Positions 5,630 through 59,123 of a stretch of DNA of 64,000 nt are shown here, piece after piece. The DNA is from Eucommia ulmoides (lineage: Eukaryota; Streptophyta; Magnoliopsida; Garryales; Eucommiaceae). Every line of letters starts with the position of its first letter. The stretch's first letter is position 1. The position numbers were made by a program, and so were the translations under genes. The stretch is taken from contig CM028338.1 of the NCBI GenBank assembly GCA_016647705.1, positions 15,212,240 through 15,276,239 on the forward strand, given 5' to 3'. The notes under the pieces were generated by a model. It was not told the DNA's origin and searched no databases. It saw only the letters and a program-made list of their open reading frames with translations.

Positions 5630-5630
5630 T

Positions 5631-5644
5631 TCCATTAGAGCTGG
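5631..5644 (+). promoter_or_regulatory. primer binding site of element B
   Basis: TCCATTAGAGCTGG sits directly after the LTR and resembles the common plant site TGGTATCAGAGC, complementary to initiator tRNA-Met. The same leader, followed by TTTAGCTCA, is seen in antisense in element C at about 11740-11761. Confidence 0.6.
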
Positions 5645-5678
5645 TTTAGCTCAAATTATTTTGCTAATCAAGATCACA

Positions 5679-7060
5679 TGGCACACATAGTAGGCACACT
5701 AGCTGAGGGGTAGTCTATGCACCGACCACCCTTGTTTGCAAGTGGAAGTTACTCGTTATGGAAAGACAGGATGATAGCCTTGCTTCAGGCTACAAATTAT
5801 GACGTGTGGCTAACAATCGAGGATGGTCCATTCATTCCAATGGAAAACGGAGTTGAGAATAAGAAGGAACAACCCACTGCTTCCGATAAGCAGAAACTCT
5901 CTATTAATTCTCAAGCTATCAATATTCTCTTTTGTTCTTTAGATGCTAATGAGTATTCTAGAGTTTCGGGTTGTAAATCCGCAAAGGATATGTAGGATAA
6001 GCTATAAGTCACCTACGAAGGGACAAGTCAAGTAAAGCAGTAAAAAATCAATGCACTTATGAGAAAATTTGAGCTGTTCAAGATGAAAGAGAATGAATCG
6101 ATTCATGAGATGTATACTTCATTCAACACCGTATGCAACAATATGAATCAACTTGGAAAGCCATATTCCATGGAGGATAAAGTACGAAAGGTCCTAAGGT
6201 CTTTGACAAAAATATGGGAGTCAAAGGTGACGACAATCAAGGAAGTCAAAGATCTTGGAAAATACGATATTGATGATCTCATTGGAAATTTGATGACTCG
6301 TGAATCGGAAATTAAAGGTTACGAGGATGATACCGAAAATGGCAAGAGGAAATCCTTGGCACTAAAAGTTCAAAAAATTGAAGAAAATGATGACAGTGAT
6401 GATGAAAGTCTTGATAGTGAGCAAAATAAAAATGTATTACTTCTCACAAACAATTTTAGAAGAATGACTCGGCGCACATTCCATGGAAAAAGAATTCTCA
6501 ACATGTCCAAAGTCGAATGCTACAGCTATCGTAAAATTGGTCATTTTAAAAATGATTGTCCCGAACCGAAGAAGGATAAAGAAAAGGAAAAGAAGAAAAA
6601 AGAAAAGAAAAAAACAAAGAAGAGCAAGAAGAAATCAATGAAGGCTACTTGGGATGATACCGATTCAAGTAGCTCAGAAGAATCAAATAGTGATGATACG
6701 TCCATGCTTGCATTAATGGCCACTGGTGGTGAGGTAACCGATTGATCAAGTTCTTGTCCTTTAAATTTTGATGAATTGTTTGATGTTTATCAAGAACTTT
6801 CACATGATTATAAAAACCAGTCTTCTAAAATAAATGCCCTTCAAAGTACAATTAACGCATTAAACGAGCAAGTGGTGGACTGCGAATCTGAAAACAACGG
6901 GTTGAAATCAAAATTGATGGATTTGCAATCAATTGTTCCCAAATTCATTGGCGGTGAAAATAATTTGAAAATACTTTTGGGAAGTTCACGTGGAGTTTTT
7001 GATAAAGCCGGTGTTGGTTTTCAGAAAAATCTTAAACAAATATCAAGGATCTTGTGAAAT
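5679..7060 (+). pseudogene. SIRE gag remnant (element B)
   Basis: Translated segments match SIRE-type gag. The N-terminal part reads RPPLFASGSYSLWKDRM, followed by a stretch with SKINALMRKFELFKMKENES, then a region with 'VRKVLRSLTKIWESKVT'. A zinc-knuckle region (CYSYRKIGHFKNDC) lies near 6515, and a very lysine-rich and then acidic/serine-rich tail near 6570-6730. After this comes a coiled-coil-like segment (6776-6960). In the family, gag builds the particle and binds RNA. Broken; no function expected. Confidence 0.85.
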
Positions 7061-7254
7061 GTTTTAAATGTAACATTGTGGGGCATACTATTTGTAGATG
7101 ATTTACAAAAATATCTAACTGTAGACAAGTTTGGGTTCCAAAAGGAACTAAAATTGTCCCGACTAACAAGATCGAACCCACATAGGCTGAGTACCACTTA
7201 GGAACTATTTGAGGTGCTTCTTGCAGGTTATTTTAAAAGCATCAATAAGTAAGG

Positions 7255-8970
7255 ACAAATGGTTCCTGGATAGTGGTTGTTCTCGACACATAACGGGAGA
7301 TAAATGAAAAATTTGCATCTTTGACACCAAAAGATGGAGGTCATGTGACTTTCGAAGACAACGCAAAGGGTAAAATTATCAGTATAGGTAATATCGGTAA
7401 TGGTACTACTATGATTAAAGATATGTTACTAGTTGATGAACTTAAACATAATTTGCGTAGTATTAGTCAACTATGTGGCAAGGGCTATAATATTATATTT
7501 GATTATGATAGATGCATCATTAAGAATAGTCATGATAGTAGTATCTTACTAATTGCATCACATTTTGAGAATGTGTATACTTGCTCTTTTGATGATTTTA
7601 ATTCTAAAAATCTATCTTGTTTGAATGCTTTATCTAAAAATAGTTGGTTATAATATAGAAGACTTGGGCATACTAGTATGGAGTTAATTTCTAACTTATC
7701 CAAGAAGAGTCTTATACGTGGCCTACCTGATTTGAAATATGTGAAGGATAAAGTATGTGATGTATGTCAATTAGGCAAGCAAGTTAGATCATCATTTAAG
7801 AAAAAGATGCACATGTCCACGTCTAGATATCTTGAATTATTTCATCTTGATTTATTTTGGGCCTAACTCTACTGCTAGTTTTGGTGGTAAGTTTTATGCA
7901 TTTGTCATAGTTGATGATTCTTCTAACTTACCTGGGTATATTTTTTTGCAAAGGAAAGTAAGGTTGCTTCCGTTCTTGCTAAATTTTGTAAACGTGTTCA
8001 AAATAGGAAGCAATATTCTATTATTAACATTCGTAGTGACAGAGGAAGAGAATTTAAGAATGATGAAGTGGTAAGTTATTGTGATGAGCATGGTTATGCT
8101 CACAACTTTTCTACACCAAGATCACTGCAACAAAATGGTGTAATGGAAAGGAAGAACATAACGCTTCAAGAGATGGTCAGAACAATGTTAAATGAAAATC
8201 GCCTACCAAACTACTTCTGGGCCGAAGCAGTAAGTACCGCTTGTCACATAGTAAACTAAGTATCAATTTCGTAGAGGGTTTAATAAAACCCCATATGAAA
8301 TCTGGAATGGTAAGACTCCTAATATTTTCTATTTTAAAGTCTTTGGATGCAAATGTTTCATTTTGAATGACAAGGATAATCTTGGTAAATTTGATGCTAA
8401 ATCTGATTATGGGATTTTCCTTGGATATGCTACAAATAGTAAGGCTTATAGAATTTATAATAAACATACTTTAGTAGTAGAAGAAATAATGCATGTTGTT
8501 TTTGAGGAAGCTGATCCATTCTTGTCGAGAAAGGTTTTGGATGATGATGATGCATATATCTTAAATAACCAAAACCAAGGTAATGATGTACCAAAGGAGT
8601 CTCAACAAGAGGAGGAACCTAAGAAGAAGGATTCGACTTTGCCAAGAGCCATAAAAAAAGTACCAGGGCATTCAATTAAAGAAATCATCGGTAATTTCGA
8701 AAAAGGTATAAGTACTCAATCTTTTCTTAGGGATATAATTTAACTTACTTTCTTATCTCAAATTGAGACTAAAAATATAAATGAGGCGTTAATTGATGAA
8801 TCTTGGATTTCCGCAATGCAAGATGAATTAGTTCAATTTTAGAGGAACAAAGTGTGGTGTCTTGTTCCGAGACCGAATTTTCATCTAGTTATTGGCACTA
8901 AATGGGTATTTAGAAACAAAAAAGATGAATCTGGTATGGTAACCAATTAAAGGATTTATAATTTGCGAAT
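7255..8970 (+). pseudogene. SIRE pol remnant: protease, integrase, RT start (element B)
   Basis: The protease region shows WFLDSGCSRHITG near 7259, with the copia aspartic-protease signature. A pre-integrase zinc-binding segment follows at about 7640-7860 with CDVCQLGKQ. The integrase core end is seen as QNGVMERKNITLQEMVRT near 8130 and FWAEAVSTACHIVN near 8215. The integrase C-terminal region has GYDIFLGYATNSKAYRIYN-like sequence near 8410. The first part of RT starts at about 8760. The order protease-integrase-RT defines copia. Several breaks; truncated at the right. Confidence 0.85.
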
Positions 8971-8973: not shown

Positions 8974-10043
8974 CGGCTCGTTTGGTTGAACGGAATGGAA
9001 TGAGGGTAAAATGAAATGAAAGAAGTAATGGAATAAAATTGTCAATAGAATTACTATTTCATTCTCTTGTTTGGTTGGTTTGGAATGAGGGAAGGAATAG
9101 AATAGTGAAATATTTTCTCATTATACCCTTGTAAAATTATTATTTCATTCTCTTGTTTGGTTAGTATAAAATGAGTTAAAGAATGGAATGAAATAAAATA
9201 AAATTCTCATTATGACCTTATTACAAAATTTTATTATATTTCACTATTTCATTCCTTCTCTCATTTTATTATATTTTACTATTTCATTCAATTTGAAATT
9301 TCTGTTCTCTAATTTCTGTTTCTATTCTCAATTTTCAGTTTCTATTCTCTAATTTTTGTTTCTGTTCACAATTTTCAGTTTCTATTCTCAATTTTTCGTT
9401 CTCTAATTTTCTGTTTTTGTTTTAAATTTTTAGTTTATGTTCTTAATTTTTTGTTTCTGTTCTCAATTTTCTGTTTCTGTTCTTAATTTTCAGTTTTTGT
9501 TCGCAATTTTTAGTTTCGTTTCTCAATTTTCTATTCTCTAAATTTTTATTTTTTTCTCAATTTTTAGTTTATATTCTCAATTTTCTATTTTTGTTTTTAA
9601 TTTTCTTTTTTTGTTATCAATTTTTAGTTTCCGTTCTCAATTTTATGTTCTGTAATTTTATATTTTTATTCTCAATTTTTAGTTTATGTTATTAATTTTT
9701 TATTTCTGTTCTCAATTTTTTGTTCTTAATTTTCTGTTTCTATTCCCAATTTTCTTTTCTCTAATTTCTATTTATGTTCTCTAATTTTGTTTTTGTTGTT
9801 AATTTTTAATTTTTGTTCTCAATTTTCAAGGGTTTAAATACAAGGACTATTATGTAATTTACGATGTTGATTTCATTGGGTTGGAATCTCATTCCAACCC
9901 ATCTCAAATGGAATCTCATTGCTTCCTATTTCATTCTAATGGAATCACAAAAATGATTCCATTGGAGAACCAAACAATGAAATAGAAATCGAGAGCGAAA
10001 TGTGATTCCATTCTGTCCCGATTCAGGCCAACCAAACATACCA
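8974..10043. mobile_element. Tourist/PIF-Harbinger-like MITE
   Basis: The ends are inverted: CGGCTCGTTTGGTTG on the left and TGGTATGTTTGGTTG (reverse complement of the right end). They are flanked by TAA on both sides (8971-8973 and 10044-10046), the three-base target duplication typical of PIF/Harbinger. The subterminal parts, rich in 'ggaatggaatgag' and 'attccattctg', are also inverted. No transposase frame is visible. The middle is filled by a T-rich tandem repeat. At 1070 bases it is long for a MITE, mostly because of that repeat. Confidence 0.6.
9290..9830. repeat. T-rich 20-21 base minisatellite inside the MITE
   Basis: A degenerate unit close to GTTTCTGTTCTCAATTTTCA repeats head to tail roughly 26 times, with frequent one-base length changes. 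It lies between the two subterminal halves of the MITE and appears to have expanded after or during the MITE's own amplification. Confidence 0.75.
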
Positions 10044-13141: not shown

Positions 13142-13159
13142 TGGCGTTGTTGCCGGGGA
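13142..13159 (+). promoter_or_regulatory. tRNA-Asp primer binding site of G1
   Basis: TGGCGTTGTTGCCGGGGA differs by a single base from TGGCGCCGTTGCCGGGGA, the complement of the 3' end of plant tRNA-Asp, and starts a few bases after the LTR end. Similarity to the tRNA stops about 20 bases in, as is normal. This is the usual primer of Athila elements. Confidence 0.85.
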
Positions 13160-18913: not shown

Positions 18914-20190
18914 TGATAGGTTGAAAATACCTATCTATTTCTAAGCCAACTTTGGTAGTGTTTGAGTGTTTTAGTAATATTTAATTGCGTTTATGTTTGT
19001 TTTGATGTAAATCAGGTGTAGGGATATAATCGATTGATAATAAAGCAAAACGGTGGGAAAGCGGTGAAAAAACGATGAAAAGGATCAAAAGTTTAATGCA
19101 ACAATTTCACCGCTCCAGTAGTCAAATAATAGAGAGTGGCCAAACTTTCTAGTCACTCACCACTGCAATGGTGAAATGGCAGAAGGCCCATCGCTGCAGC
19201 GGTTACAAGCCACCTGTGTTTAAGATATTTTTGGATATTTTAAGCCTTGTCTTATACCCCTTTGCTCTCCCACTTTTCAAGAACGTTCAACACTTGATCT
19301 TAACCTATTTTTGAGAGCTTAAAGAAGAGATTTCATATTTGGAGAAGAGGAAACATTCCCGGATCGGTCTTTGGCGAAAGTGGACCACTCTACTCTAAGA
19401 TTTGTCGTTTCTATCTTTGTATCTAAACATTTTATCTTGAATGATGATAAATATCTCTTGTTTTAATGTTTGTATGGTTGAGATCATGGTTGGATAGATA
19501 TTGTCTAAGGGTTTATTGAGTACATGTATATACACGTTTGATTAAATACACGTTTCTGTAACAGTTGTTTGTCTAAATCCAATTGTGTTCACCATTTTAT
19601 TACAATCTTAATATGTTTGTCATGGTATTAGGGTTGTTTTGAGAATATAGAGTTTGACACTCGGGAAAGATTACCCCAGATTCGGACTAGGGTTAAACAC
19701 ATTACGACGATCTAATGACTCGGGAAGGTATTAAAAAATGTGCAATCCATGAGGTTGGGTCAAGACTCATGTGACTTAGTGTCATATAGACATTGAGGGG
19801 GACTTCGTTATTGACGCGAAGTCACATATTTGCTCACTTTACACTCGGGAGAGGTAGTGAGCGAGTTTATGATACTTAGATTGTTGGATAGGATAAACAC
19901 CGTTATTCTAAACTAAACAAATTCAAACATGTATTAGTGAATAAAATCAATCCTTAGATAATCTATTTTATTAGAATTAATCTAATAGTTGTTAGGTTAA
20001 TTTAGTTTTTCAAATTAGCAACTCAAACAATTCTTGAACCGTGTAGATAATATAAGACTATGTCGATTGTATTATTCAATTAATCCAAACACCTTTCCCA
20101 GAGGATGACATCTGATCGTAAGATCCATTATATTAAAACTTGACCTCGTGTACTTGCGAGTTAAATCAATGCGTGAAAAAGTCGCGTTCA
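18914..20190 (+). repeat. 5' LTR of G2
   Basis: TGATAGGTTG...GCGTTCA. It contains palindrome-like motifs around 19120-19205 (for example CACCACTGCAATGGTG and ATCGCTGCAGCGGT). The conserved Athila block starts near 19650, including stem-loops at about 19801-19823 and 19832-19862. Confidence 0.9.
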
Positions 20191-20196
20191 AGATTT

Positions 20197-20214
20197 TGGC
20201 GCCGTTGCAGGAGA
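20197..20214 (+). promoter_or_regulatory. tRNA-Asp primer binding site of G2
   Basis: TGGCGCCGTTGCAGGAGA, close to the complement of the tRNA-Asp 3' end, six bases after the LTR end. Similarity stops after about 19 bases, in contrast to G3, where the whole tRNA is present. Confidence 0.88.
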
Positions 20215-20339
20215 TACGGTGTAGTGATTTGGTTGATATTACTACTAAGTAGTTGAATATTAATCCTGACAATTCTTTTATTTGATATTGTTTCAATTTG
20301 TTTTCGAATTTGTTTTATTTGTTGTCATCAGGCAGTGTA

Positions 20340-21972
20340 TGCGCCGTAGTAGAAGTTTAGAATTCTTGAATCTTAATCCTGAGATCGAGTGTACCTTGAG
20401 AAGAATAAGGAGAGAGAGAAAAAGACAACTTCAAGCCATGGCCGACAGAGGAGATGATCATATGCCACATCCACTGCCGATTCCACAGGCACTACCGCGG
20501 TACCCTCTGGAGCCAGAAGTTCCACAACGGGTCCTTAGGGACTACTATCAACCCGTTATGTTTGACAATTACTCAGCAATTCGGAGGCAGCTGATTCAAT
20601 CTAATAATTTCAAGTTGAAACCTGCCCTGATTAATATGGTCCAATAAAACCAATATGGTGGGAATCTCCACGAAGATCCGAATATCCATCTGGCTACATT
20701 TCTGGAAATATGTGATACAGTGAAAATCAACGGTGTTGCTGAGGATGTAATACGGTTGAGGTTATTTCCATTTTGACTTCGTAACTGAGCATGGGGTTGG
20801 TTCTAATTGGTTCAATCAGAAAGAATCAACAATTGGAAGGACCTTGCTCAAAGGTTCCTTACTAAGTTCTTCCTGACTTCAAAGACATTGCAGCTAAGAG
20901 GTGAAATTGCACAATTGCACCAAAGGGATTTTGAGCCATTATTTGAAGTGTGGGAGAGGTTCAAAGATCTATTGCGTAAATGCCCCCAACACGGGTACCA
21001 AGATTGGTTTTAAACCCAACTATTCTACAACAGGTTGGATGGCCAAACAAGAACCATCATTGATGCCACCTCGGGAGGAACGTTGTTATAAAAAATCACG
21101 AATGAAGCTAATGCGCTACTAGAAGAAATGGTGGCCAATAATTACCAATGGCCAAACGAGAGGAACACAAGACGAAAGGTAGCTTCAATTCATGAGGCTG
21201 ATCCTCTTGCTACCTTATTGGCCGAAGGCTCAAAACTCGCATAACAAATAGTTTCATTTTTTACTAAAGAAGCTTCGTCGAGTCATGAAGCGAAAAATGT
21301 TGCAAGTAGTTCACGACCAAGAGTTGATAGTGAGTTCGAAGAGTGTCCCTTCGTCAACAATCGGGCTTATACCTTTAGGCCAGCCACCAATATTCCGTAT
21401 ACAAATAATTAGAACACGTTGCGACTGCCTCCCAGTTATGGATCACAAGCTCAAGGATATCAGTCTACGCAACAAAACCATCAAATGCAACAAACTCCGA
21501 TGGAAAATCAAAAGATATGCTTGGTTCATTTATGAAGGAGACTCAAACAATTATGCGTGAGACGCATAACTGGCTCAACAAACATGAGACGAGGCTAGAC
21601 ACGATTGAGACCACGTGTACCAACACGAATGCCACTGTGAAGTTGTTGGAAACTCAAATCGGTCAACTTGGAAATGCGATCCAAGAGAAAACCAAGGGAA
21701 ATTTTTCAAGCAATATGGAGACTAACCCAATGAAGTGCAAGACAATTACACTAAGGAGCGAAAAAGAGGTCAAAGCAATTAAGACAATGGAGGAAGAGCT
21801 GGGAGTGAATCGTGATGTTGAAAATGATAAGCAAAGAATGAATGTTGAAGAGAAAGTTGATGAAAAAATTGATGAAAGAAAAGAGGAGAGAATTAAAAAG
21901 AAGATAGAGAAGAAAGTTGAGGAGAAAAGTAAGCCATTCAAATTAAAGGAAAGAACGAAGACCAAAGGGTGA
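20340..21972 (+). pseudogene. Athila gag remnant (G2)
   Basis: The start codon at 20340 (MRRSRSLEFLNLNPE) is the usual Athila position. Visible parts are an arginine-rich N-terminal segment, the NNFKLKPALINMVQ stretch before the capsid domain (about 20610), a capsid-like region with LQLRGEIAQLHQRD and WERFKDLLRKCPQHG (20890-21005), a helical LETQIGQLGNAIQEK (21640) and a very lysine/glutamate-rich tail to 21972. In the family this builds the particle. Broken. Confidence 0.85.
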
Positions 21973-22960
21973 TTCATGGAAGAATTACATTTCCGAACAA
22001 TCCACCGATTCTCACCACACCCTTATCTTATCGGCAAAGGTTCCAGAAGAAGAAGTTGGATTCTCAATTTGAAACATTTCTTGACATCTTCAAGAAAATT
22101 CATATTAACATACCTTTTGCGAATGCTTTGGAACAAATGCCCAACTACGGGAAGTTCTTGAAAGACATTATGACGAAGAAGAAGAAGTTGGAAGAATACG
22201 AGACGGTTAAGATGATAAAGGAGTGTAGTGCTATACTTCAAAGAAAATTGCCTAAAAAGTTGAAGGATCCTGGGAGTTTCACAATTCCGTATACTATTGG
22301 GAAATCTCACTTCTACAAAGGACTATGTGATCTAGGATCTAGCATCAACCTAATGCCATCATCCATTTACTAGAAGTTGGGACTTGGTAATGCGAAGCCA
22401 ACTACAATTTCTCTTTAAATGGCGAATCACTCGTTGACCTATCCGAAGGGTATTATTGAAGTTGTCTTGGTGCAGGTGGACAAGTTCATTTTTCCGATAG
22501 ACTTTGTTGTTTTAGAAATAGAGGAGGATCGAGAGATTCCAATCATTCTTGGGAGGCCTTTTCTTTCTATAGGAAAGGCGATAATCCACGTGCATAACGA
22601 GAATTTGACGTTAAGGGTGAATGAATATGAGGTTAAATTCAATATTTTCAAGACTATGAACTTTCCAGATGAATGCCCAAAACGCAACCGGGTGGAATTT
22701 TTTGACTCATTAGGGAATTCTTTTATGAAAATGTGGATCGGGATCCATTAGAGCATGCTATCAAAATTTCTCTCAGTTTTTGGGATTTTGGTGAGAAGGG
22801 CTCAACCACAAAAGATGGTGTTGTTGACTACGTTATATCTATGGAAGCTCAACCTAAAGACAGAGAGGATTCAATTCAAGTAGCCATGATTGAAGATGAA
22901 GTTAACTCTCCTGAACCATCAAATCTACCTTATGGTGTATTAATTCTCAAGTAATTACCG
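21973..22960 (+). pseudogene. Athila protease region (G2)
   Basis: Frames show a LEEYETVKMIKECSAILQ segment, then the retroviral-type aspartic protease region with CDLGSSINLMPSSIY (about 22325) and IPIILGRPFLSIGKA (about 22535). This is the spacing usual for Athila, where the protease lies between gag and RT in the polyprotein. Broken. Confidence 0.82.
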
Positions 22961-22999
22961 GATCACCTTCAGTATACTTTCTTGGGGGAGAACTTAACC

Positions 23000-23561
23000 A
23001 ATCCGATAATCATTTCTTTATTCTTGACTTAAATAGAGGAACACAAGTTGCTAAATATTCAGAAAAGGCATAGATCCACCTTCGCGTGATCTATTTTTTA
23101 TATCAAAGGAACTAGCCCTATAATTTGCATGCATAAGATCTTGATGGAGGACTCATTTAAGCCTTCCATTGAGCATCAGCGAAGGCTAAATCCAACGATG
23201 AAAGAAGTGATTCGAGCGGAGATATTGAAGCTCTTGAATGCTAAGATTATTTATGATATATTGGATAGTGAATGGGTGAGTTCGATGCAAGTGGTGTCCA
23301 AGAAAGGCAGAATGACAATAGTAAAAAATGAGAGGAATGATCTTATTCCTACACGAACCATTACTGCATGGCGAGTGTGTATCGATTATAGAAGATTGAA
23401 TAAAGCTACTCGGAAATATCATTTTTCTCTACCATTTATTGATCAAATGCTAGATCGTCTTGCCGGCTATGATCATTACTACTGTTTTGATGGCTATTCA
23501 GGATACAATCAAATAGTCATTGCATCAGAAAATCAAGAAAAGATAACCTTCACATATCCGT
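23000..23561 (+). pseudogene. Athila reverse transcriptase, part left of G3
   Basis: Contains the segment before the RT palm (PSIEHQRRLNPTMKEVI) and CIDYRRLNKAT near 23375, followed by FDGYSGYNQIVIA near 23490, which corresponds to the RT motif holding the first catalytic aspartate. The region is interrupted by G3, and the rest lies from 28622 on. Confidence 0.88.
23557..23561. repeat. target-site duplication of G3, left
   Basis: TCCGT before TGATAGGTGTG; the same five bases follow the right LTR at 28622-28626. Confidence 0.9.
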
Positions 23562-25429
23562 TGATAGGTGTGAAAAACCTATTTATTTCCAATCCGAATT
23601 GGTTAGTTTTCGAATATGTTTATAGTTATTTTTATTATGTTTTAATTAGTTTTTATACTTTTTGTATAAATCAGGCGTGTGGAGCAAAAAGATAGGAAAC
23701 TGGAGCGAAAATGATGAGATCGAACCGAAGGCGAGTTGAAATTACGGTGGATAAACAAGCAAGGAGGCAAAAATATAAAGGAAGCCCACCGCCTAGGCGT
23801 CCAGACCTCCGCCTAGGCAGTGAAGATGCTAAGAATGACAAAAGGCTACTGACAGCCCACCGCCTAGGTAGGAAATTCCTCTGCCTAGGTGGAAACCCCA
23901 GTAGAAACATTTCTAAGTCCACCGCCTACTTCTTCGCCTAGGCAGTCACCAAACCTGCAAAGCCGGTACAGGTGCTGTAACTTCAAGGCTATTTTGGACT
24001 ATGATTAAATCCTATTTTGGAAATACTCAAAACATGTAAGTTGTATATCGTTTTCTTATCTTTCCATAGGTTTTTGAATCACCTAAATCGGAGTTCTGAT
24101 AAAGAAGTTACAGCCAAAACAACATTTCAAACCTGAAGTAAATTCGCCTAGGCGAATTTTTCTGCGCCTAGGCGAATTTCTGGCAGAAAGTTAACCGACT
24201 TAACTTCGCCTAGGCGAAAATCCTGCAGCACACCCTTGATATTTATTAGATATTTTGAGATCTTTTGGAGATATTTTTTTTCATTCTCTCTAGCTCTCTT
24301 CTCTCTCTTGCATTTTTGAGCCCCTTAGGCTATAGTTAAGCCAAGGGTTAGGAATTTTAGGTGTGGAGCTCGCATCCCGAAGTGGGGAAGACGGAGAATC
24401 GATCGTGGAGCGTTCTTAGCGGTTTACCTTCGGACGAGGCTAAGTTCTTCGATTGTTTTTCCTTATTTCTTTATCTTAGGAGCATGTGAGCATGTTTAGC
24501 TCGTTATTTTCTTGTATATGCAGCTATGGCCCCGAGTTAAATATGGATTGTAGTAGGGATTAACATATATTTATAAATACGTTGTTTGGATAATTTCGGT
24601 GTTTCGTTTATGATTGTTCTTCATAGTTTGATTGTATTTATCTTATTGTTTGTTTATTATGCTTGGATTGATAAATGGAGAATACGGGGTTTTGACAAAA
24701 CCCCGGATTCGGATTACGGTAAACAAACGCCACGATTATATAACCCGGTCGGGGTTCGAATCGTGGATAATCGATGACGTTGGGCAAGACACACGCTACC
24801 TAGGGTCGTAAAGACGTTGAGGTGGACCTCTTCGTTGGCTCAAAGTTGTGTTATATTTCTCGTCTTACACTCGAAAGAGGTGGGAAGGAAGTTTTAGAAC
24901 GGAGATTGTCAATAGGGTAAATACAACGCGATGATCCAATAACCCGGGAGGGAGTTGGATTGTGCGCAATCAATGACGCTGGGTGAGACTCACATGACCT
25001 AGGGTCGTAAAGACATTGAGGGGGACTTCTTCGTTGACTCAAAGTCATGTATTCTCCCATCTTACACTCGAAAGAGGTGACGATGGAGTTTACGTACCGA
25101 GGTTGTCAAATAGGTCGAACAACGTAAACGCGAGTAAATCGGAATCGAACACGTATTTGTAAACACGTTAATCCCTATAAAATTCTTCACCCTAAAACAT
25201 ATTAACATAATAGTGTAGTTAATTTAGGATATATTAGTATTAGTTTAATTAATTAAATACATTTGTTGTTCGCCTAGATAAAATTAGGTCACGACAAACG
25301 CGGTATTCGATAGTAACAACAACAATCCCTGTGGATACGATAACCCGATCTTAACAATCACACTATACTAAAACTTAGACCTCGTATACTTGCGAGTGTA
25401 AGTAGCGGCCTGTTTTTCCCGTGCTACCA
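23562..25429 (+). repeat. left LTR of G3
   Basis: TGATAGGTGTG...GTGCTACCA. Features seen: about eight copies of a GCCTAGGCG-type palindrome (23790-23945 and 24145-24215, including TTCGCCTAGGCGAA); a perfect 10-base hairpin at 24685-24705; an 8-base inverted pair CCACGATT/AATCGTGG (24730-24737 with 24759-24766); and two successive copies of the conserved Athila block (about 24690-24905 and 24906-25125). The block duplication explains much of the extra length relative to G1 and G2. Confidence 0.92.
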
Positions 25430-25439
25430 AGTTTTTTTG

Positions 25440-25511
25440 CGCCGTTGCCGAGAATCGAACCCGGGTTACCCGCGTGACAGACGGGAATACTCACCACTAT
25501 ACTACAACGAC
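25440..25511 (-). tRNA. complete tRNA-Asp(GUC) copy in primer-site position
   Basis: On the minus strand these 72 bases read as a full tRNA-Asp: GTCGTTGTAGTATAGTGG start, anticodon loop CTGTCAC (anticodon GTC), T-arm CCGGGTTCGAT, acceptor end CAACGGCG. The length is that of plant tRNA-Asp without CCA, and acceptor, anticodon and T stems all pair (some G-U). From memory it differs from the canonical plant sequence at about four sites, all transitions. It begins exactly where G1 and G2 have their 18-base primer site, a few bases after the LTR end, in the orientation expected for a copied primer. It is therefore best read as a reverse-transcribed primer. The internal A and B boxes of RNA polymerase III are still recognisable. 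No T-run terminator follows closely on the minus strand. Confidence 0.93.
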
Positions 25512-26753
25512 CCACATCCCTAGGCGGGAAAATTACCCCTTGTTGTTTTCGAAGTCAAGGGTAATACCCATGCATGTGTGATTCTGTGTGCTTGACTATG
25601 CTTTTTGGTAAAAATTATTGTAGATCCTAATTTGCACGGGGACATAGACTCAATGTATTTCTATTCAATTGATTTGAGGACGATTATCGATTAATCAAAT
25701 TCATGACACATTAAGGGTTCTAGAACTTGATTGAAGGGAAGCTTGAGGCGAAATCCTAGGCGAGGTAATTCAGGAGATGTGATTTAGGCAGTCGTTTTGT
25801 CACTTGAGCCTTTTTAAGCCTACCTTGTTACATGTTTATCCCTCGTTACCTTGTCGTAGCCTAAATGCAAATTCAATTCAGAACACATAAACCAATACCA
25901 TAGCCAATTGAATTCCTTCTAGTCCTTAATCGCTGAATTTAAAGGCACATTTGAGTGAATCAAGTTAGCCGTTGCAAAGGCTTCTTGATGTGAGCGGTTG
26001 GGTTTAAGGCGAACTTCTAATTGGTTCGGTATTTGAGTACTCACTTGTCGTTTTTCATTTGTATTTCGCACACCCCTTCAATTGTAACAATCAAATAAGT
26101 TTGGGGGTGTGTTCGTTGAAAAAAAAAAGAATCAAATGTAAATACGGTTTTTTATTTCCGTTTCTTTTGACAAGTGAGTACGTCAGTCTTAAATGCATGT
26201 TTAGGATTGTTCCCAATCTTTCTATGGGAATTCAAGAGTGAATGTACCAAGCGTTGAGTCTTGGGTAACGTTAAGTTAACAACGTTAACCTATTTTTCTA
26301 TTCCGAAATTACCCTTAGCCAAATTAACCTTAACCGAACCAAGTCCTAATGATCTTCATGAGTTACTAAACCTACATTAGTGGAGAGTGCACCCCAATCA
26401 GGCTTATGGTAATCCTTAAGTCATGAATTTCGTTGGTGGATAATCCAATCCGATCGTTGTATAATTATATTATTGAGTCTTGCACTAACACGTTCAAAGG
26501 ATCTAGAATAGCGTTCACCATTATTGCATGTCGAAATTCTAGAACATTAAATGCTGTGTGTTACCGCCTGAACTCGATACTACTGGCGGTTGTTGAGGGA
26601 ACAATAACTAGGTTGTTAGAAGAAGTCAAAACTCGCATGTTGTTATGTTTAGATTGTTTTAGGTTCTTTGTTATTTATTTCCGTTTGTTGTATTTTTCAT
26701 TTCAGTGTGTGTGTTTAGCTCGAGGACGAGCCAAATTTTGAGTTTGGGGGTAT
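25512..26753 (+). other. G3 interior: Athila 3' noncoding DNA and polypurine tract
   Basis: The stretch aligns in order with the 3' end of G2 (about 33560-34810). Shared points are 'gggtaatacccatgcatgtgtg', 'catagactca', 'gaggcgaaatcctaggcgaggta', 'gtgagc.gttgggtt', 'aataagtttgggggtgtg', 'ctacattagtggagagt' and 'gctcg.ggac.agc.aaatt'. No protein domain is recognised. It ends AGTTTGGGGGTAT directly before the right LTR, a polypurine tract. It begins directly at the 5' end of the tRNA copy, so everything between primer site and 3' noncoding region is absent. Confidence 0.85.
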
Positions 26754-28621
26754 TGATAGGTGTGAAAAACCTATCTATTTCCAATCCGAATTGGTTAGTT
26801 TTCGAATATGTTTATAGTTATTTTTATTATGTTTTAATTAGTTTTTATACTTTTTGTATAAATTAGGCGTGTGGAGCAAAAAAATAGGAAACTGGAGTGA
26901 AAATGATGAGATCGAACCGAAGGCGAGTTGAAATTACGGTGGATAAACAAGCAAGGAGGCAAAAATATAAAGGAAGCCCACCGCCTAGGCGTCTAGACCT
27001 TCGCCTAGGCAGTAAAGATACTGAGAACGACAAAAGGCTACTAACAGCTCATCGCCTCGGTAGGAAATTCCTCCGCCTAGGTGGAAACCCTAGTAGAAAC
27101 ATTTCCAAGTCCACCGCCTACTTCTTCGCCTAAGCGGTCACCAAACCTACAAAGTCGATACAGGTGTTGTAACTTCAAGGCTATTTTGGACTATGATTAA
27201 ATCCTATTTTGGAAATAATCAAAACATGTAAGTTATATATATTTTGCTTATATTTCCATAGGTTTTTGAATCACCTAAATCGGAGTTCGGATGAAGAAGT
27301 TACAGCCAAAACAAAATTTCAAACCTGCAGTAAATTCGCCTAGGCGAATTTTTCTGCGCCTAGGCGAATTTCCGGCCGAAAGTTAACCGACTTAACTTTG
27401 CCTAGGCAAAAATCCTACAGCACACCCTTGATATTTATTATATATTTTGAGATCTTTTGGAGATATTTTTTTTCCTTCTCTCCAGCTCTCTCCACTCTCT
27501 TGTATTTTTGAGCCCCATAGGCTATAGTTAAGCCAAGGGTTAGGAATTTTAGGTGTGGAGCTCGCATCCCGAAGTGGGGAAGACGGGGAATCGATTGTGG
27601 AGCGTTCTTAGCAGTTTATCTTCGGACGAGGCTAAGTTCTTCGATCATTTTTCCTTATTTCTTTATCTTTGGAGCATGTGAGCATGTTTAGCTCATTATT
27701 TTCTTGTATATGTGGCTATGGCCCCGAGTTAAATATGGATTGTAGTAGGGATTAACATATATTTATAAATACATTGTTTGGATGATTTCGGTGTTTCGTT
27801 TATGATTGTTCTTTGTAGTTTGATTGTATTTATCGTATTGTTTGTTTATTATACTTGGATTGATAAATAGAGAATACGGGGTTTTGACAAAACCCCGGAT
27901 TCGGATTACGGTAAACAAACGCCACGATTATATAACCCGGTCGGGGTTCGAATCGTGGACAATCGATGACGTTGGGCAAGACACATGCTACCTAGTGTCG
28001 TAAAGACGTTGAGGGGGACCTCTTCGTTGGTTCAAAGTTGCGTTATATTCCTTGTCTTATACTCGGAAGAGTTGGGGAGAGAGTTTTAGAACGGAGATTG
28101 TCGATAGGGTAAATATAACGCGACGATCCAATAACCCGGGAGAGAGTTGGATTGTGCGCAATCAATGACACTGGGCAAGACTCACATGACGTAGGGTCGT
28201 AAAGACGTTGAGGGGGACTTATTCGTTGACTCGAAATCATGTATTCTCCCGTCTTACACTCGAAAGAGGTGACGGTAGAGTTTACGTACCGAGGTTGTCA
28301 AATAGGTCGAACAACATAAACGCGAGTAAATCGGAATCGAACACGTATTTGTAAACACGTTAATCCCTATACAATTCTTCACCCTAAAACATATTAACAT
28401 AATAGTGTAGTTAATTTAGGATATATTAGTATTAGTTTAATTAATTAAATACATTCGTTTTTCGCCTAGATAAAATTAGGTCACAACAAACGCGGTATTC
28501 GATAGTAACGACAACAATCCCTGTGGATACGATAACCCGATCTTAACGATCACACTATACTAAAACTTAGACCTCGTATACTTGCGAGTGTAAGTAGCAG
28601 CATGTTTTTTCCGCGCTACCA
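26754..28621 (+). repeat. right LTR of G3
   Basis: Same length as the left LTR and colinear with it throughout, including the GCCTAGGCG palindromes and both copies of the conserved block. It ends GCGCTACCA and is followed directly by the target duplication. Confidence 0.92.
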
Positions 28622-28626
28622 TCCGT
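28622..28626. repeat. target-site duplication of G3, right
   Basis: TCCGT immediately after GCGCTACCA, the end of the right LTR. Confidence 0.9.
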
Positions 28627-29215
28627 ACGGAACATTTGCCTACTATCGTATGCCGTTTGGTCTTTGCAATGCACCGGACACATTTCAATGTTGTATGATG
28701 GCAATTTTTCGGATATGGTGGAAAACATAATGGAAGTTTTCATGGACAACTTTTCGGTCTTCAGTTCTTTCTTCGAGAATTTCTTGTACAATTTGGCGCT
28801 TATTCTCAATTGTTGTGAAGAGAAATACCTAGTTCTCAATTGGGAGAAGTGACATTTTATGGTCAAGGAAGGGATAGTCTTAGGTCATTGAGTCTCTTCT
28901 AAGGGGCTTGAGGTGGACCGAGCCAAGATTGAAACGATCAAGAAACTTCCACCTTCGATCAATGTGAAGATAGTCCGAAGCTTCTTGGGCCATGCCGGCT
29001 TCTACTGGCATTTTATCAAAGATTTCTCAAAGACGATGAAGCTGTTATGCCATTTGCTCGAGAAGAAAGCTCCATTCGATGTTGATGAAGCTTGCTTGGA
29101 AGCTTTCAATGCGATGAAAGAGAAGTTGATCACGACTCCTATAATAGTCGCTCCAGATTGGAACGAGTCATTTGAAATAATGTGCGATGCTAGCGACTAT
29201 GTGGTTGGATAGATT
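28622..29215 (+). pseudogene. Athila reverse transcriptase, part right of G3
   Basis: Begins at the G3 target duplication. It shows YRMPFGLCNAP (about 28645) and the following palm/thumb region, then a connection segment with KTIKKLPPSINVKIVRSFLG-like wording (about 28930) and FYWHFIKDFSK. The RNase H start motif MCDASDYVVG lies near 29180. It belongs to the same element as the part at 23000-23561. Confidence 0.88.
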
Positions 29216-29560
29216 TTTGGCCAAGGCAAGGAAAATATCTTTTGATCTATCTATTATGCAAACAAGAGTTTGAATGATGCCCATGATTATTACACCACAA
29301 CCGAGAAAGAGATGTTGGTTGTTTTTGCGTGCGATAAGTTCCAGTCTTACATTATAGGATCCAAGGTGATCGTCTATACGGATCATGCCGCCATCTGGTA
29401 CTTATTTGCTAAGAAAGATGCCAATCCACGTTTGATCAGGTGGATTATCTTGTTTTAAGAGTTTGATGCGAAAATACGAGATAAGAAGGGGAGAGAAAAC
29501 GTTGTTGTTGATCATTTATCACGACTTATGCAAGAGGACGTTAGTGATGATTCCTGTATC
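29216..29560 (+). pseudogene. Athila RNase H remnant (G2)
   Basis: Contains [17 protein letters not shown] (about 29292), [17 protein letters not shown] (about 29372) and, near 29510, the 'DHLSRL' end that marks the RNase H-integrase border in gypsy elements. In the family this domain removes the RNA template. Broken. Confidence 0.85.
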
Positions 29561-30855
29561 ACGGAAGTATTCCTGGATCAACAATTGTTCAAAGTTGACA
29601 CCAAACTTCCATGGTTCATAGATATCATCAACTATCTAGCATGCAAGGTGTTGCCATTGGATCTTTCAAGTGCCCAGAAGAAGAAATTCCTATTCGATTC
29701 GAGGCATTATGTGTGGGATGAGCCATTGTTGTTGAAGAAGTGTGCTGACCAAGTAATCCAAAGATGTGTTCCGGAGGAGGAAATGGCTAGTATTCTATGC
29801 TATTGCCATTCATCACCATGTGGCAGGTACTTTGGAGCGACATAGACAGCCGCTAAAGTACTTCAGCCATGTTTTTACTGGCCGATATTGTTTCGTGATG
29901 CTTATAATTTTGTGAAAACCTACGATCGATGGCAACGGGTTGGCAACATATCAAGAATGTATGAATTTCCATTGACGTTCATTCTTGAATTGGAACTGTT
30001 TGATGTGTAGGGTATAGACTTCATGGGGCTGTTTCTGTTGTATTTCAGTTAGGAGTACACTCTACTGGTAGTGGATTACATGTCTAAATGGGTCGAAGCT
30101 GTGGTGATGCCTACTAATGATGCCAAGGTGGTTATAAAGTTCCTTCAGAAGAATATCATGACACGGTTTGGGACACCTCGAGCCATTATCAGTGATGAAG
30201 GGACCCAGTTTGGTTACAAAATGTTTAATACTTTGTTAACAAAGTATGGGGTAAGGCATAAGGTAGCGCTACCATACTATCCATAGACAAACAACCAAGC
30301 CAAAGTGTCCAACTGTGAGATTAAGCGAGTTTTGGAAAACACGATTCATTCTAATCGCATAGATTAGGCGGTGAAGTTGGATGATGTGTTATGGGCATAC
30401 CGCACGGCCTTCAGGACACTGATTAGCATGTCACCATATAGGTTGGTATTTGGTAAGGCATGTTACTTTCCCATGGAGTTAGAGCACTGTGCCTACTGGG
30501 TGATCAAGAAATTGAATTTCAATCTAAATGCTTCGGGTGAACAACGTCTCCTCCAACTCAATGAGATGGAGAAATTCTGAAATGAAGCGTATGAGAATGC
30601 CAAGTTTTACAAAGACAAGACAAAGTGGTGGCATGACAAGAAAATAGTTAGAAGGGAGTTCGTCTTGGGCCAGCAAGTTCTGTTATTCAATTCTTGGCTA
30701 AGGCTCTTTTCCAAAAAAATTAAAGTCCCGATGGTCTGGACCATTCCGGATCAAGCATGTATTTCCATTCGGCTTCGTCGAGTTGGAAGGCGATGATGGT
30801 CGCATTTTCCAAGTTAATGGGGAGAGGATTAAACATTACTTTGGAAACAAATAAT
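29561..30855 (+). pseudogene. Athila integrase remnant (G2)
   Basis: The N-terminal zinc-binding region lies near 29770-29960. The catalytic core shows DYMSKWVEAVVMPTND (about 30075), GTPRAIISDEGTQF (about 30170) and VALPYYP (about 30265), then [13 protein letters not shown] (about 30380). The C-terminal segment ends near 30855 with GRIFQVNGERIKHYFGNK. It follows RNase H, the order that defines gypsy. Broken. Confidence 0.87.
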
Positions 30856-31154
30856 GAGTTGTAGAGACTATCTCCCTTATTGACGATTGAGGTAGAATTT
30901 GCAAGTCCAGTTGGGGACGGTAAATCAAGCGCTAAATCAAGCGCACTTTTTGGTGTAAAACCTAGGGTATGATGTTCGCCAGCCTTTTGATAGTAAGTAC
31001 TTTTTGGAGGCCGGAATGGTATCGGAGCGTGTTTGAAGGTTATGTGAGGAGTTTGGATATTCGGAGTAGTGTTTCGTTCATGAAAACGTTAAAGTAGAGA
31101 AGTGGGAGCGAGTGGTGTGAAGCCTTGTTGTGAAAAAATTCAGAAAACAAGAAA

Positions 31155-31310
31155 AACTTGTAGGGCGACCACCGCTGCAACGGTCGCCAGAATATCAGTT
31201 GACATTCTGGCGTTCCACCACTGCAGTGGTGAAACGACCGGTGCAGCGGTAAGATAACTGTATGACCACTGCAGTGGTGAACTTACCGCTACAACGGTGA
31301 TGGCCCTGTT
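31155..31310 (+). repeat. palindrome cluster downstream of pol (G2)
   Basis: Within about 150 bases there are five motifs of the same kind. They include CACCACTGCAGTGGTG, a perfect 16-base palindrome at 31216-31231, and ACCACTGCAGTGGT, a perfect 14-base palindrome near 31264. The others are degenerate CCGCTGCAACGGTCGCC, CCGGTGCAGCGGT and CCGCTACAACGGTG. They match the motif type found in the LTRs of the same element. Confidence 0.8.
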
Positions 31311-31926
31311 CTGATTTAAGGGGCGTCGCTTCATTAAACCGCCGCAACCACCTCTTAATAACCCGAAACCTCTCAAAATTCTCGTCCCAAATGGTTTCCA
31401 AGTCCCAAATCCATCATTTCATTTTCTTAATCATAGTTTTTTCACCACAAATCATCCACCAAAAATCCATTTTCACCCACCAATTCGAATTCTAGGGTTT
31501 GAGGAATGAAATGGGCGATTTCAACCATTTTCAACTGTTGGGCACTCATTTTTTTTTTGGAAAGTAAGTAGATTTGCACCTACATTTCATGAATGTGTTC
31601 AAATCTTGAGTTGATTTCCATGTTTTTATCATGATTGATTGAATTTGATTAATTCTCATGAAACCCTAGAAAGCCTATTTTACGATTTCTACATGACATT
31701 GTGCTGTTGGGTCAATTTTTGGTGATGACCTGTTGTTTAGGGATGGTATAATTGTGTGATGCAAGGCTTGATGCCAAATTGTTGAAATTTTGATGAAATC
31801 GTTGTAATTGGTGTGCGCGCATTTGGGAAACTTCATGTTATTAGCAATTAGTGATTGTTTGGTTACATTTTTCTTGTTCAGTTGTGATTGGGTAGTTGTG
31901 TTTTGTGTCTTGAATTGATAGGGACA

Positions 31927-33120
31927 ATGCCTAAAAGAGCCGCCTCTAAATGACCAAGGGGAGAAGGATCCGGTTCACAATCCGGTAGTGCCGCTTCCGA
32001 CTTCAACTCAACCAGTTTTGTTTCCAAACAAGCTGAAGAGCATTTTAAATTATTTGAGTATAAGTGGGTTTGCATTCGGCAGCATGGGTTTGTGTCCTTA
32101 GACGATATTTCGGCCGAGTTTTCGAACGTAATAAGGAGTCGAGGTTGGGAGCAGTTTTTCCAAACACGATCCCTAGGCGATGTTGCTTTGGTCCAGGAAT
32201 TTTATGCAAACTATGTTGAAGGTCAGAACAACTGGACCAGAGTCCGGACTCGTCCCATAATTTTTGGTCTAGACAGAATCAATGAAATTTTGGGATTGGT
32301 TGCTCTGGTGAGACCTCAAGGGGCAGATGAAGAGCACGAACCAAGCCTAAATATAGTCATCCGGGCCCTAACCACCGACAATGTCTAATGAACACATATT
32401 GGGCTGGGTCTCACTAACTTTCCATCAAAGTTCTTAAATCCAATCCCGAAGATTTGGTACCACTTTATTTGCTTAAGCCTCCTCCCGATGTCTCACTTAT
32501 CCGACGTCTCAAAAGATCGTGCTGTGACGCTTCAAGCTATTCAGACGGGAAAATCGTTGAATATTGAGTTCCTTATCTATTTGTCAATTCTACATGTCGT
32601 CCAAACCACAAAGGCTGGCCTACCCTTCCCATCACTTCGCACTGAACTTTTCAAGAGGGCTGGTGTGGTGATCTCCGGGGATAGTGCTTGCGTCCCCATT
32701 AAACCTCTGCATCTCCCAATAATGAATCAATTATGGAAAGACGAGGTATAAGGCCCAGGAGAACAAGAAGAAGGGCCAGAAGAAGAAGAAGAAGGGTCGC
32801 CTGAGGCCCCAGTTATAGAGGCTCCTGGCCACCCAACGATCACATTGGACGAACTTCATCAAGAGATCCAAGCTCTTCGAATGGACGCCGCCGTTCTTCT
32901 CCACGAGCAGTGTAATATCTAAAATAAAAATACCGAACTCTAGATATTCTTGGACTAATATCTTCACTAGCAGGATCAAGTTCAACTGTACTTTGGCACT
33001 CAAGCTGGCTACGATATGAAGGACTTCCTGCCAATGCTGCCATTTCTGCCACACCTATTGCAACTACCACACAATCCATTCTGTCGCAACGGTGATAGAG
33101 ACAACATCCTTCCAAGTGGA
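31927..33120 (+). pseudogene. second reading frame of Athila (3' ORF) remnant
   Basis: Starts with ATGCCTAAAAGAGCC at 31927. The protein segments resemble the 'putative plant transposon protein' region found 3' of pol in Athila-type elements: a basic N-terminus, FKLFEYKWVCIRQHGFVSL near 32040, then GWEQFFQTRSLGDVALVQEF and RPIIFGLDRINEILGL. A later acidic segment (EGPEEEEEGSPEAP) lies near 32770. The function of this ORF is not established; in some Athila elements the region has been compared with envelope genes. I see no clear signal or membrane segment here. Broken. Confidence 0.65.
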
Positions 33121-33123
33121 TCG

Positions 33124-33155
33124 TAGGAGGTGAGACTTGAAAGTCTCACCTCCTA
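33124..33155. repeat. perfect 14-base hairpin after the 3' ORF
   Basis: TAGGAGGTGAGACT is followed by the loop TGAA and the exact reverse complement AGTCTCACCTCCTA. A partial counterpart, with 'ctcacctccca' and the same following 'ggta.(c/t)gtt', stands at the equivalent place in G1 (about 14300-14330). Confidence 0.85.
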
Positions 33156-34810
33156 GGTATATGTTCGGTACCCATTATTGTCATCATTACTATATTCTGC
33201 TATTGGGTTCGCTAATGAGTCAATGTGGACACTGCCTAGTTCAAGTTCAGGGGGATGTATTTTGTTTTGTCATACAGAATGATTAGGATGGATATGTATA
33301 TTTTTTTTGTATTGTATTGGGATAGTTATGTTTAGTTTTTGTTATGGATGCTTTATGTATGTGTAGTTTTTATGCTTTGTAGACATTTTTATGAATGTTG
33401 TAGACTTTAAAGTTTAAGTTTTTAATCCAGTTTTTGTTTATGCATGTTTTGAAAGCTTAGTGTAGTGTATGTATGTTAGTATATAGAATTAGAATAGATA
33501 TGTTTATGTATGAAGTAGTAATTACGTGTTGAGTTGTTGAGTTCGTCTGGGCCATTACTCGATGACGAAAATCATCCCCTAATTGTATATCGAGGTTGGG
33601 AGTAATGCCCATTCATGTGTGTTCTGTAATCTTGGCATGTCGATTAGGTAAAAGTCATTTTGATCCTAAATTGTACGATCACATAGACTCATTGTAAAGT
33701 TATTCAAATGATTTGACACCGATTATTCAATAATAAGTTCATGACACTTCTAAGGAACCTAGAACTTGATTGGGGGAAACTTGAGGCGAAATCCTAGGCG
33801 AGGTAGTTCATGAGACATGATTTAGGCTTTCATTTTTATCACTTGGGCCTTTGAAGCTTACCTTGTAAATTTTTTATCCTTCGTTACCCGAAGCTTATAG
33901 CCGTTTCAATTCTAAACATATATCAAATACCTGGGCTAATTAAATTTTTTCCAAACCATTGTCGCTGAACCTAAGGCACAAATTGAGTGAAATCAAGTTA
34001 GCATTTGTTAATGTTACTTGAAGTGAGCAGTTGGGTTTCAGACGAACTTTTTATTGGTTCAGTATTAGAGTTCTCACTTGTCATTTTCTATTATATTCAA
34101 ACACCCCTTTAATTGTACAAATCGAATAAGTTTGGGGGTGTGGTTTCTTATCTTTAAAAAAAAAGAATATAAATAAATAAACATTATGTAAATATAGTTT
34201 TATTCTCGTTTCTTTTGACAAGTGAATACAAAGTTCTTAAATATTTGTTCAGGGTTGTGTTTTAAATGTTTGGGGTTACGAGAGTAAATGAGCAATAATG
34301 TGTTTGTGGCTTGGGTATTGTTGAATTATAATGGTCACTTGTTTTCTATTCCTGAGATACCCTTGGCCATTTTGTAAAAATTGAAACAAGCCCTATTGAT
34401 CTTTTTCAACTTCCAAACCTACATTAGTGGAGAGTAAAACTCAATTGAGCATATAGACTTCCCAATCCTTTACGGTTTAAGTCATAAGCTTAGTTACTGA
34501 ATAATCTAATCTGGTGTTTGCATAGTCGTATATTTGAGTTTTCATGCATACACTTTGAATGGATCTAAAATGGCCTTTACTGATATTGAGTGTTGAAATT
34601 CTAGAACACCACTTAGTGTGTTTTATTCTTGAACTTGATTTGATTAGGGGCCGTTGAGGGAAGAACATTTTGGTTTCTTAGGTTGAACTTGGAACTCACA
34701 TGCTGTTACTTCTTGTTCGTTTATGTTTTTTTGTTTTTAGTATAGTAGTTTTAGTTTATGTGTTAGAGTGTTTTGCTCGGGGACTAGCAAAATTCCAAAT
34801 TTGGGGTATT
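33156..34810 (+). other. 3' noncoding region and polypurine tract of G2
   Basis: Long T-rich noncoding DNA, colinear with the interior of G3 from about 33560. It ends 'ggggactagcaaaattcc' and TTTGGGGTATT directly before the right LTR; this purine-rich end is the expected start of plus-strand synthesis. Confidence 0.8.
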
Positions 34811-36132
34811 TGATAGGTTGAAAATACCTATCTATTTCAAAGCCGAATTTGGTAGTTTTCGAGTGTTTTAGTAATATTTAATTGTGTTTATGTTCATTTT
34901 TATGTAAATAAAGTGTAGGGACGTAATCGATTGATAATCAAGTAAAACGGTGGGAAAGCGGTGAAAAAATGATGAAGAGGATCAAAAGTTTAATGCAATA
35001 GTTTCACTACTATAGTGGTCAGCCCACTGCTGCAACGGTGAAACAATAGAGAGTGGCCAAACTTTTTGGTGCTCACCGTTGTAGCGGTGAGATCCATCGT
35101 TACAACAGTGAAACGACAGAAGGCCCATCGCTGCAACGGTCACAAGCCAATTGTATTTAAGATATTTTTAGATATTTTGGGCCTTGTCTTATACCCCTTT
35201 CCTCTACCATGTTCCATGAATGTCTAACACTTGATCTTAACCTATTTTTGAGAGCTTGAATATGAGATTTCATATATGGAGAATAGACAACTTTCCCGAA
35301 TTAGTCTTTGGTGAAAGTGGACCACTGTACTCTAAGATTTACCCTTTCTATCTTTGTATCTGAACTTTTTATCATGAATGATGATAAATCTCTCTTTTTT
35401 TAATGTTTGTATGGTTGAGAACATGGTAGGCTAGATAGATATTATCTAGGGGTTGATTGAGTTCATGTATATACACGTTTGATTGAATACATATTTCTTT
35501 AATGATTGTTTGTCTAAATCCAATTGTGTTCACCATTTTATTAAAATTTTAATAATATTGTCATGGTATTAGGGTTGGTTTTAAGAAAACGGGGTTTGAC
35601 ACTCGGGAGAGGTAACCCTAGTTTCAGACTAGGGTTAAACACATCATGACGATCTAATGACCCAGGACGGCATTATAAAGTGTAGAATCCATGAGGTTGG
35701 GTCAAGACTCATGTCAATAAGTGTCGTATATACATTGAGAGGGACTTCAATGTTGACGCAAAGTCACATATTCGCTCACTTTAGACTCAGAAGAGGTAGT
35801 GAGCGAGTTTCTGATACTTAGATTGTCGGATAGGATAAACACCATTATTGTAAACTAAACGAATTCAAACATGTATAAGTGAATAGAATCAATCCCTAGG
35901 TAATCCATTTTATTATAATTAATCCAATAGTTGTTAGTTTAATTTAGTTTTTCAAATTAGCAACTCAAACAATTCTTGAACCGTCTAGATAATATAAGAC
36001 TATGTCAATTGTAGTATTCAATTAATGCAAACACCTTTCCCAGAGGACAACATCCGATCGTAAGATCCACTACATTAAAACTTGAACTAATGCACTTGCG
36101 AGTTAAATCAAGGCGTGAAAAAGTCAAGTTCA
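34811..36132 (+). repeat. 3' LTR of G2
   Basis: TGATAGGTTG...AAGTTCA, colinear with the 5' LTR. It has more copies of the palindrome-like motif than the 5' LTR (about 35005-35150, for example GCTCACCGTTGTAGCGGTGAG). It also carries both conserved stem-loops (second at 35773-35805, 8 paired bases). Confidence 0.9.
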
Positions 36133-59120: not shown

Positions 59121-59123
59121 TGT

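Follow-up and report, generated by a model that had tools for sequence, protein, structure and literature searches.

A short LTR retrotransposon of Eucommia ulmoides, here called G3, and at least 75 further places in the same genome very probably record plus-strand strong-stop DNA that ran past A58 of its tRNA-Asp primer, the complement of the tRNA being contiguous with LTR, spacer and primer-binding site (PBS) and ending at or before nucleotide 1. G3 lies within the window, by which we mean the whole stretch of 64,000 nucleotides that was analysed (C14:15212240-15276239 of a searched genome of 946,670,599 bases in 391 contigs), and is nested in another element, G2. The features on which the analysis rests are the following.

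13142..13159, plus strand: ordinary 18-base PBS of element G1
18914..36132, plus strand: G2, the Ty3/gypsy element holding G3, with LTRs at 18914-20190 and 34811-36132
20197..20214, plus strand: ordinary 18-base PBS of G2
23557..23561: left target-site duplication of G3, TCCGT, the same 5 bases standing at 28622-28626
23562..25429, plus strand: left LTR of G3 (TGATAGG...CTACCA), 1,868 nt
25430..25436, plus strand: spacer between LTR and PBS of G3, AG followed by a T run
25437..25454, plus strand: PBS of G3, complementary to the last 18 bases of tRNA-Asp, 15/18 matching
25439..25511, minus strand: complete tRNA-Asp(GUC), antisense to G3, found by ARAGORN and Rfam
25455..25511, plus strand: read-through part, complementary to the tRNA between A58 and nucleotide 1 inclusive, 54/57 matching
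25512..25527, plus strand: 16-nt filler between the tRNA 5' end and the 3' region
25528..26753, plus strand: 3' region of G3, which in relatives lies between the coding part and the right LTR and which aligns to G2 from 33567
26754..28621, plus strand: right LTR of G3, 1,868 nt
28622..28626: right target-site duplication, TCCGT

G3 is thus a short element with two LTRs of 1,868 nt, which align to each other without gaps (102 differences, K2P 0.057), and a 5-bp target duplication; since it carries both, it integrated as an element, as the first-pass annotation of this DNA had supposed of the read-through product. Its internal part measures only about 1.3 kb and consists of spacer, PBS, complete antisense tRNA, 16-nt filler and the 3' region, the last closed by a G run just before the right LTR. 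The 3' region is homologous to the last 1.2 kb of the internal region of G2 (71% identity), so that relative to G2 about 8.3 kb between the PBS and 33567 are missing. The breakpoint at 25528 is sharp: from there on a relative, L027, shows 94.5% identity for 200 nt and it differs upstream, and at least 25 genome places, among the 40 scored of 3531 candidates, match G3 at 98-99% starting exactly there. With two LTRs and a target-site duplication, no coding capacity and internal sequence from an autonomous relative, G3 is LARD-like; its largest internal frame fragment (104 aa) gave no Pfam match. Within the LTR, a palindromic motif around CGCCTAGGCG is frequent, and a segment of about 200 nt occurs twice (24715-24916 / 24913-25114).

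The insertion of G3 splits the reverse-transcriptase region of G2, the older element. The coding region of G2 is in pieces, with remnants in the order gag, RT, RNase H, integrase and Transposase_32, and Pfam placed Retrotrans_gag at 20807, RVT_1 at 23090 (below the Pfam cut-off), RT_RNaseH at 29246 and rve at 30053. This gene order and the tRNA-Asp PBS point to a Ty3/gypsy element, likely Athila-like, although Athila ORF-1 (PF03078) was not among the Pfam matches of the G2 fragments searched. G3 is likewise likely to be an Athila-like Ty3/gypsy element. Elements of the Athila, Diaspora and Calypso group, as described in parts of PMC1142308 and PMC6317226, also combine a long LTR, a tRNA-Asp PBS separated from it by a few bases, and large non-coding regions; the tRNA-Asp PBS is described for Diaspora in PMC1142308, and in the same portions of the two papers the Diaspora PBS comprises 18 complementary bases only, unlike the site in G3.

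That G3 carries a real copy of the tRNA, far above chance, is confirmed by several approaches. ARAGORN found a single tRNA in the 64-kb window, tRNA-Asp with anticodon GTC at 25439-25511 on the minus strand, and Rfam RF00005 matched 25440-25511 on the same strand over positions 1-71 of 71 with 54.8 bits, again as the only tRNA of the window. Compared with a canonical plant tRNA-Asp sequence, G3 shows 15/18 matches in the PBS and 54/57 in the bases that follow, whereas G1 (13142) and G2 (20197) both match at 16/18 and then at only 11/57 and 10/57, respectively; the runner-up 57-mer of the window reaches 29 matches. Both the complete antisense tRNA-Asp(GUC) behind the left LTR of G3 and the PBS-length matches of G1 and G2, each noticed at first pass, were found again by these means. 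The first-pass annotation had missed the short internal region of G3, its nesting in G2, the 16-nt filler and the comparable junctions elsewhere in the genome. One of the three misses of G3 beyond the PBS agrees with the sequence most frequent among the host genes (15 exact genes), and the CCA complement, TGG, is altered in its own PBS. The spacer is AGTTTT in G1 and in the LTRs of the same family L028 and L029, and AGATTT in G2. L029 and L028, found in the 200 kb that follow the window on its right side, carry ordinary 18-base sites; the final 100 nt of these related LTRs show 89% and 83% identity, respectively, and no second tRNA copy was detected in those 200 kb. As a separate observation, both show, within about 100 nt of the normal PBS, a second copy resembling an LTR end and PBS, as if duplicated.

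A functional tRNA gene in G3 was considered and rejected, since no T run stands shortly 3' of the tRNA: it has no near Pol III terminator, the first T4 in the sense direction being 66 nt downstream. The folded tRNA strand was not clearly more stable than its shuffles (z = -1.06; 30 of 200 as good). Taking the divergence of the LTRs as a clock, 2.2 changes would be expected in the 57 tRNA bases, and three are seen against the canonical sequence or two against the commonest host gene; in the PBS, 1.0 change is expected and three are seen. The age of the tRNA copy thus weakly fits that of the insertion. Scans of viral contig and genome contig collections with tRNA-Asp patterns gave 0 matches, and a protein search with the frame across the G3 junction gave no candidate.

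The genome was searched for similar junctions in two ways. A query of 311 nt across the G3 junction gave 43 matches among the 40 scored of 3531 candidates; within that scope the only full match was G3 itself, and at least 14 others had the LTR end followed by a match reaching deep into the tRNA. With a 38-base pattern made of LTR end, spacer, PBS and the first 11 bases past the PBS (up to 3 mismatches), we found at least 75 places beyond G3, including the 14, and none with the reversed control; G3 itself is too diverged for the pattern and stands outside the 75. The junctions that were read are those of 74 of the 75 places (the one left out is on C17) plus G3. All this evidence consists of integrated copies in one assembly, and about 0.3-1.2 kb of sequence was read at the places other than G3, the one element in which both LTRs and a target-site duplication were seen. 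Ordinary sites in the same LTR context number 2,689 (up to 1 mismatch over 29 bases) and read-through places 13 (up to 1 mismatch over 38 bases), which suggests a ratio of roughly 1 in 200, a crude figure given that the pattern lengths differ and some places fit both.

In a strict alignment of the 75 junctions, the tRNA copy ends at positions ranging from base 26 to base 75, counted on the antisense strand, with eight ends at base 71, seven at base 55 and six at base 75, that is, at the first nucleotide of the tRNA; these six represent five distinct junctions. The sequence joined to the tRNA was assigned to the classes below by short BLAST matches to three window elements and to the LTR end of the locus itself, so that single assignments may err.

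Inverted LTR: 31 of 75 junctions
Direct LTR: 12 of 75
Internal element sequence, direct: 11 of 75, including G3
Internal element sequence, inverted: 6 of 75
Second LTR end with its own PBS: 3 of 75
No recognised element sequence: 12 of 75

Such a number of places with LTR plus tRNA, occurring in related LTR families, could also result from one read-through event whose tRNA-bearing product amplified and then decayed into many forms. We regard this as very improbable: shared sequence past the tRNA would then be expected, but LTR ends (CTACCA, CCACCA, CGTACA and others), tRNA endpoints and partners differ between places. When the first 60 nt past the tRNA were compared, a comparison that very diverged shared junctions might escape, ten similar pairs appeared, nine of which have a common partner and different tRNA endpoints; the tenth, a tandem pair, is the only whole junction seen twice. 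The first-pass annotation had expected an amplified lineage to appear as many insertions with the same junction, and no such lineage was seen, since the G3 junction occurs once (40 of the 3531 candidates scored); on these grounds, differing endpoints and partners and a unique G3 junction, an amplified tRNA-bearing lineage was rejected. The same annotation had held that copies of this LTR family without the tRNA would speak for a chance insertion beside a tRNA gene. Most copies do lack it, yet separate read-through events are not refuted by this, because the other junctions are events of their own and the tRNA-gene alternative fails its own test, given below. The tandem pair (L042, G000:C5:35807917-35809102) consists of LTR end plus complete antisense tRNA repeated 495 bp apart, with the same truncated LTR after each of the two copies.

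We compared the junctions with the host tRNA-Asp genes to get insight about the source of the tRNA sequence. Allowing up to 3 mismatches, the genome contains 30 full-length matches, of which 15 are exact; four of the 30 are junction places, and of the 26 gene-like places that remain the flanks of 20 were read. None of these 20 genes encodes CCA and all have a T4 run within 25 nt on the 3' side, whereas 57 of the 65 junctions counted retain the CCA complement, TGG, unchanged. Beyond the tRNA, the sequence of the copies that reach nucleotide 1 (six, five distinct) matches no gene 5' flank in register above shuffles. Since the CCA complement is present at the junctions, CCA is absent from the genes and gene flanks are lacking, the template was likely the mature tRNA annealed at the PBS and not a gene. 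Among the full-length matches we also noted a cluster of six within 3 kb, some of them altered (G000:C9:2965855-2968659).

Capture of a genomic tRNA-Asp gene, by recombination or by a template switch through a gene transcript with the 18-base PBS as homology, would account for the near-perfect tRNA sequence, the host has many such genes, and the 16 nt after the tRNA of G3 have no known source. It is nevertheless extremely improbable in view of the missing CCA, the T4 runs of the genes, the absence of a gene 5' flank and the widely varying tRNA endpoints, and the capture of such a gene next to or within the element was rejected for the lack of CCA in the genes and their unrelated flanks. As to the filler of G3, its best in-register match to the host gene 5' flanks is 7/16, equalled by 99 of 300 shuffles, and a tRNA-gene flank as its source was rejected because the match is no better than shuffles. 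Thus, with LTR, spacer and PBS in normal order, TGG retained and no gene flank past nucleotide 1, the proposal made at first pass of read-through to the tRNA 5' end is upheld, and the comparison with host genes that it called for disfavours a chance insertion by a gene.

The biochemistry of such a product is known from other retroelements. In PMC13191261, plus-strand strong-stop synthesis is described as stopping before m1A58, so that an 18-base end pairs with the minus strand, and the modification as a block that makes plus-strand transfer precise; synthesis on an unmodified tRNA proceeds to the tRNA 5' end in vitro, mutation of the m1A58 methyltransferase leads to plus-strand synthesis past A58 in cells, and the full read-through product, according to the same source, cannot be used for transfer. 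Reverse transcriptases frequently misincorporate opposite 1-methyladenosine, according to parts of PMC7472051. At the junctions, the position opposite A58 carries the correct T in 63 of 65 cases and A in two, where 0.8 would be predicted from the mean rate of substitutions that are neither C-to-T nor G-to-A; the count covers 65 of the 75 rows, the ten others having gaps, a duplication or a doubtful alignment, and changes at this position are slightly disfavoured by the search pattern. Because of the misincorporation just mentioned, a column as clean as this fits a primer without the modification, and an under-modified primer, as suggested at first pass, is compatible with these data, which are no proof of it.

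We propose that reverse transcription read past A58, sometimes as far as the first nucleotide of the tRNA, on a primer that would have had no m1A58 block or with an enzyme that may have passed m1A58 accurately. The tail beyond the PBS could not pair with the minus strand, and normal second-strand transfer would then fail; the free 3' end may have been extended or end-joined elsewhere, to an LTR end (giving the inverted junctions), to another LTR or within the element. For G3, a forward jump would have joined the tail through 16 nt of filler to the 3' region, a single event that may have both inserted the tRNA and removed about 8 kb, producing a short non-autonomous element.

The 31 inverted-LTR junctions are informative in this respect, since 18 of them can be aligned to the upstream strand of the locus itself. 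In these 18, microhomology measures 0-5 nt and filler 0-11 nt, and the start of the inverted copy falls within the LTR end, the spacer, the PBS or the tRNA. They fit a snap-back of the same strand and also end-joining, and priming cannot be told from end-joining here because the microhomology is short or nil. Alternatively, genuine read-through DNA may have been joined at its linear cDNA ends by ordinary end-joining in the nucleus, reverse transcriptase taking no part in priming; filler (16 nt in G3 and up to 11 nt in the 18 inverted cases), scarce microhomology and the 12 of 75 partners that are not recognised element sequence would speak for this. We consider this the lesser possibility, though a substantial one, since 63 of the 75 partners are element sequence and 31 an inverted LTR, as fits events inside the particle, and since G3 has a clean target-site duplication and so was probably joined before integration.

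A related question is whether G3 acquired the tRNA and lost its internal region in two separate steps. Gain of the tRNA with no large deletion does exist, as L080, L101 and L104 rejoin internal sequence 76, 36 and 24 nt, respectively, from the PBS start (G1 or G2 as reference). Against this stands the position of the deletion end, 16 nt from the tRNA 5' end: the chance that a breakpoint placed independently over about 8.3 kb falls at most 16 nt away is about 0.2%, and two steps are in our view improbable, although less so than gene capture or an amplified lineage.

Further sources were considered for the 16-nt filler. Alignment with the corresponding place of G2 was no better than with shuffles and L027 looked unlike it by eye, and an origin as part of the 3' region was rejected for want of resemblance to either. 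The filler holds a 9-mer, CCTAGGCGG, which recurs five times in the window, always in the G3 LTRs. The alignment of the filler to the G3 LTR was equalled by 39 of 1000 shuffles, 205 of 1000 random 16-mers of the window and 29 of 500 GC-rich ones, and the likeness to the LTR motifs is suggestive only.

Some known systems resemble these junctions. The HIV-1 product P1, obtained with unmodified primer, is likewise a plus strand that copies the tRNA past A58 to its 5' end, but in PMC13191261 it is a biochemical or cell-culture product, unable to serve in strand transfer, whereas the copies described here are integrated, joined to other sequence and found in a plant Ty3/gypsy lineage. The primer over-extension sequence of lentiviruses and spumaviruses (PMC13191261) also matches the tRNA past the 18 PBS bases; it adjoins the PBS and allows transfer after slight over-extension, while here up to 57 extra bases are present and are absent from most family members. 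In cqgypsy_1, of the Osvaldo lineage in Culex quinquefasciatus, a whole tRNA directly follows the 5' LTR in place of a short PBS, and the part of PMC3286476 concerned reports CCA ends on the tRNAs, from which its authors infer copying of mature tRNA. The same part describes a head-to-head dimer of two different tRNAs with a flanking 26-nt LTR duplication, in one family; here there is one antisense tRNA, in register with the PBS, with 75 further junctions, and no direct repeat longer than 6 nt surrounds the tRNA in G3. The biochemistry of read-through was already known, and a genome-wide set of its inherited products was not found among the open-licence PubMed Central papers searched.

Dozens of inherited sequences look like failures of the m1A58 block, nearly each with its own endpoint and partner, and as a set they form natural data on how often the block fails in plants, on the fate of the over-long end and on whether short non-autonomous elements arise in this way. 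More tentatively, and with somewhat more doubt than confidence, we suggest that failed second-strand transfer after primer-tRNA read-through is a recurrent source of rearranged and non-autonomous plant retrotransposons, the over-long plus strand arising from a tRNA-Asp pool partly without m1A58 and leading either by snap-back to inverted LTR-tRNA-LTR structures or by a forward jump to deletion of the coding region in one step. If this were true, the tRNA scar at the PBS would make read-through events countable in any genome and would reveal the past modification state of the germline primer tRNA. The scar (LTR, PBS and tRNA past base 18) is easily searched in any genome.

Other features were observed in the window. 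About 43 degenerate copies of a 31-nt unit (consensus TGAGTGCCCTTCATTTTGCATTGTCTCTCCA) stand in tandem at 57647-58968, and an AT-rich array with units of about 20 nt lies at 9288-9826, near copia-like coding remnants that include a gag at 6044 and an SH3-like domain at 8255. The copia gag protein of the window gave 19 matches, and the named ones were all from flowering plants (8/8). Near the window ends, the stretches 3554-8942 and 59123-63412 are related at 75-90% identity in inverted orientation, and they are probably two copies of one element inserted in opposite directions.
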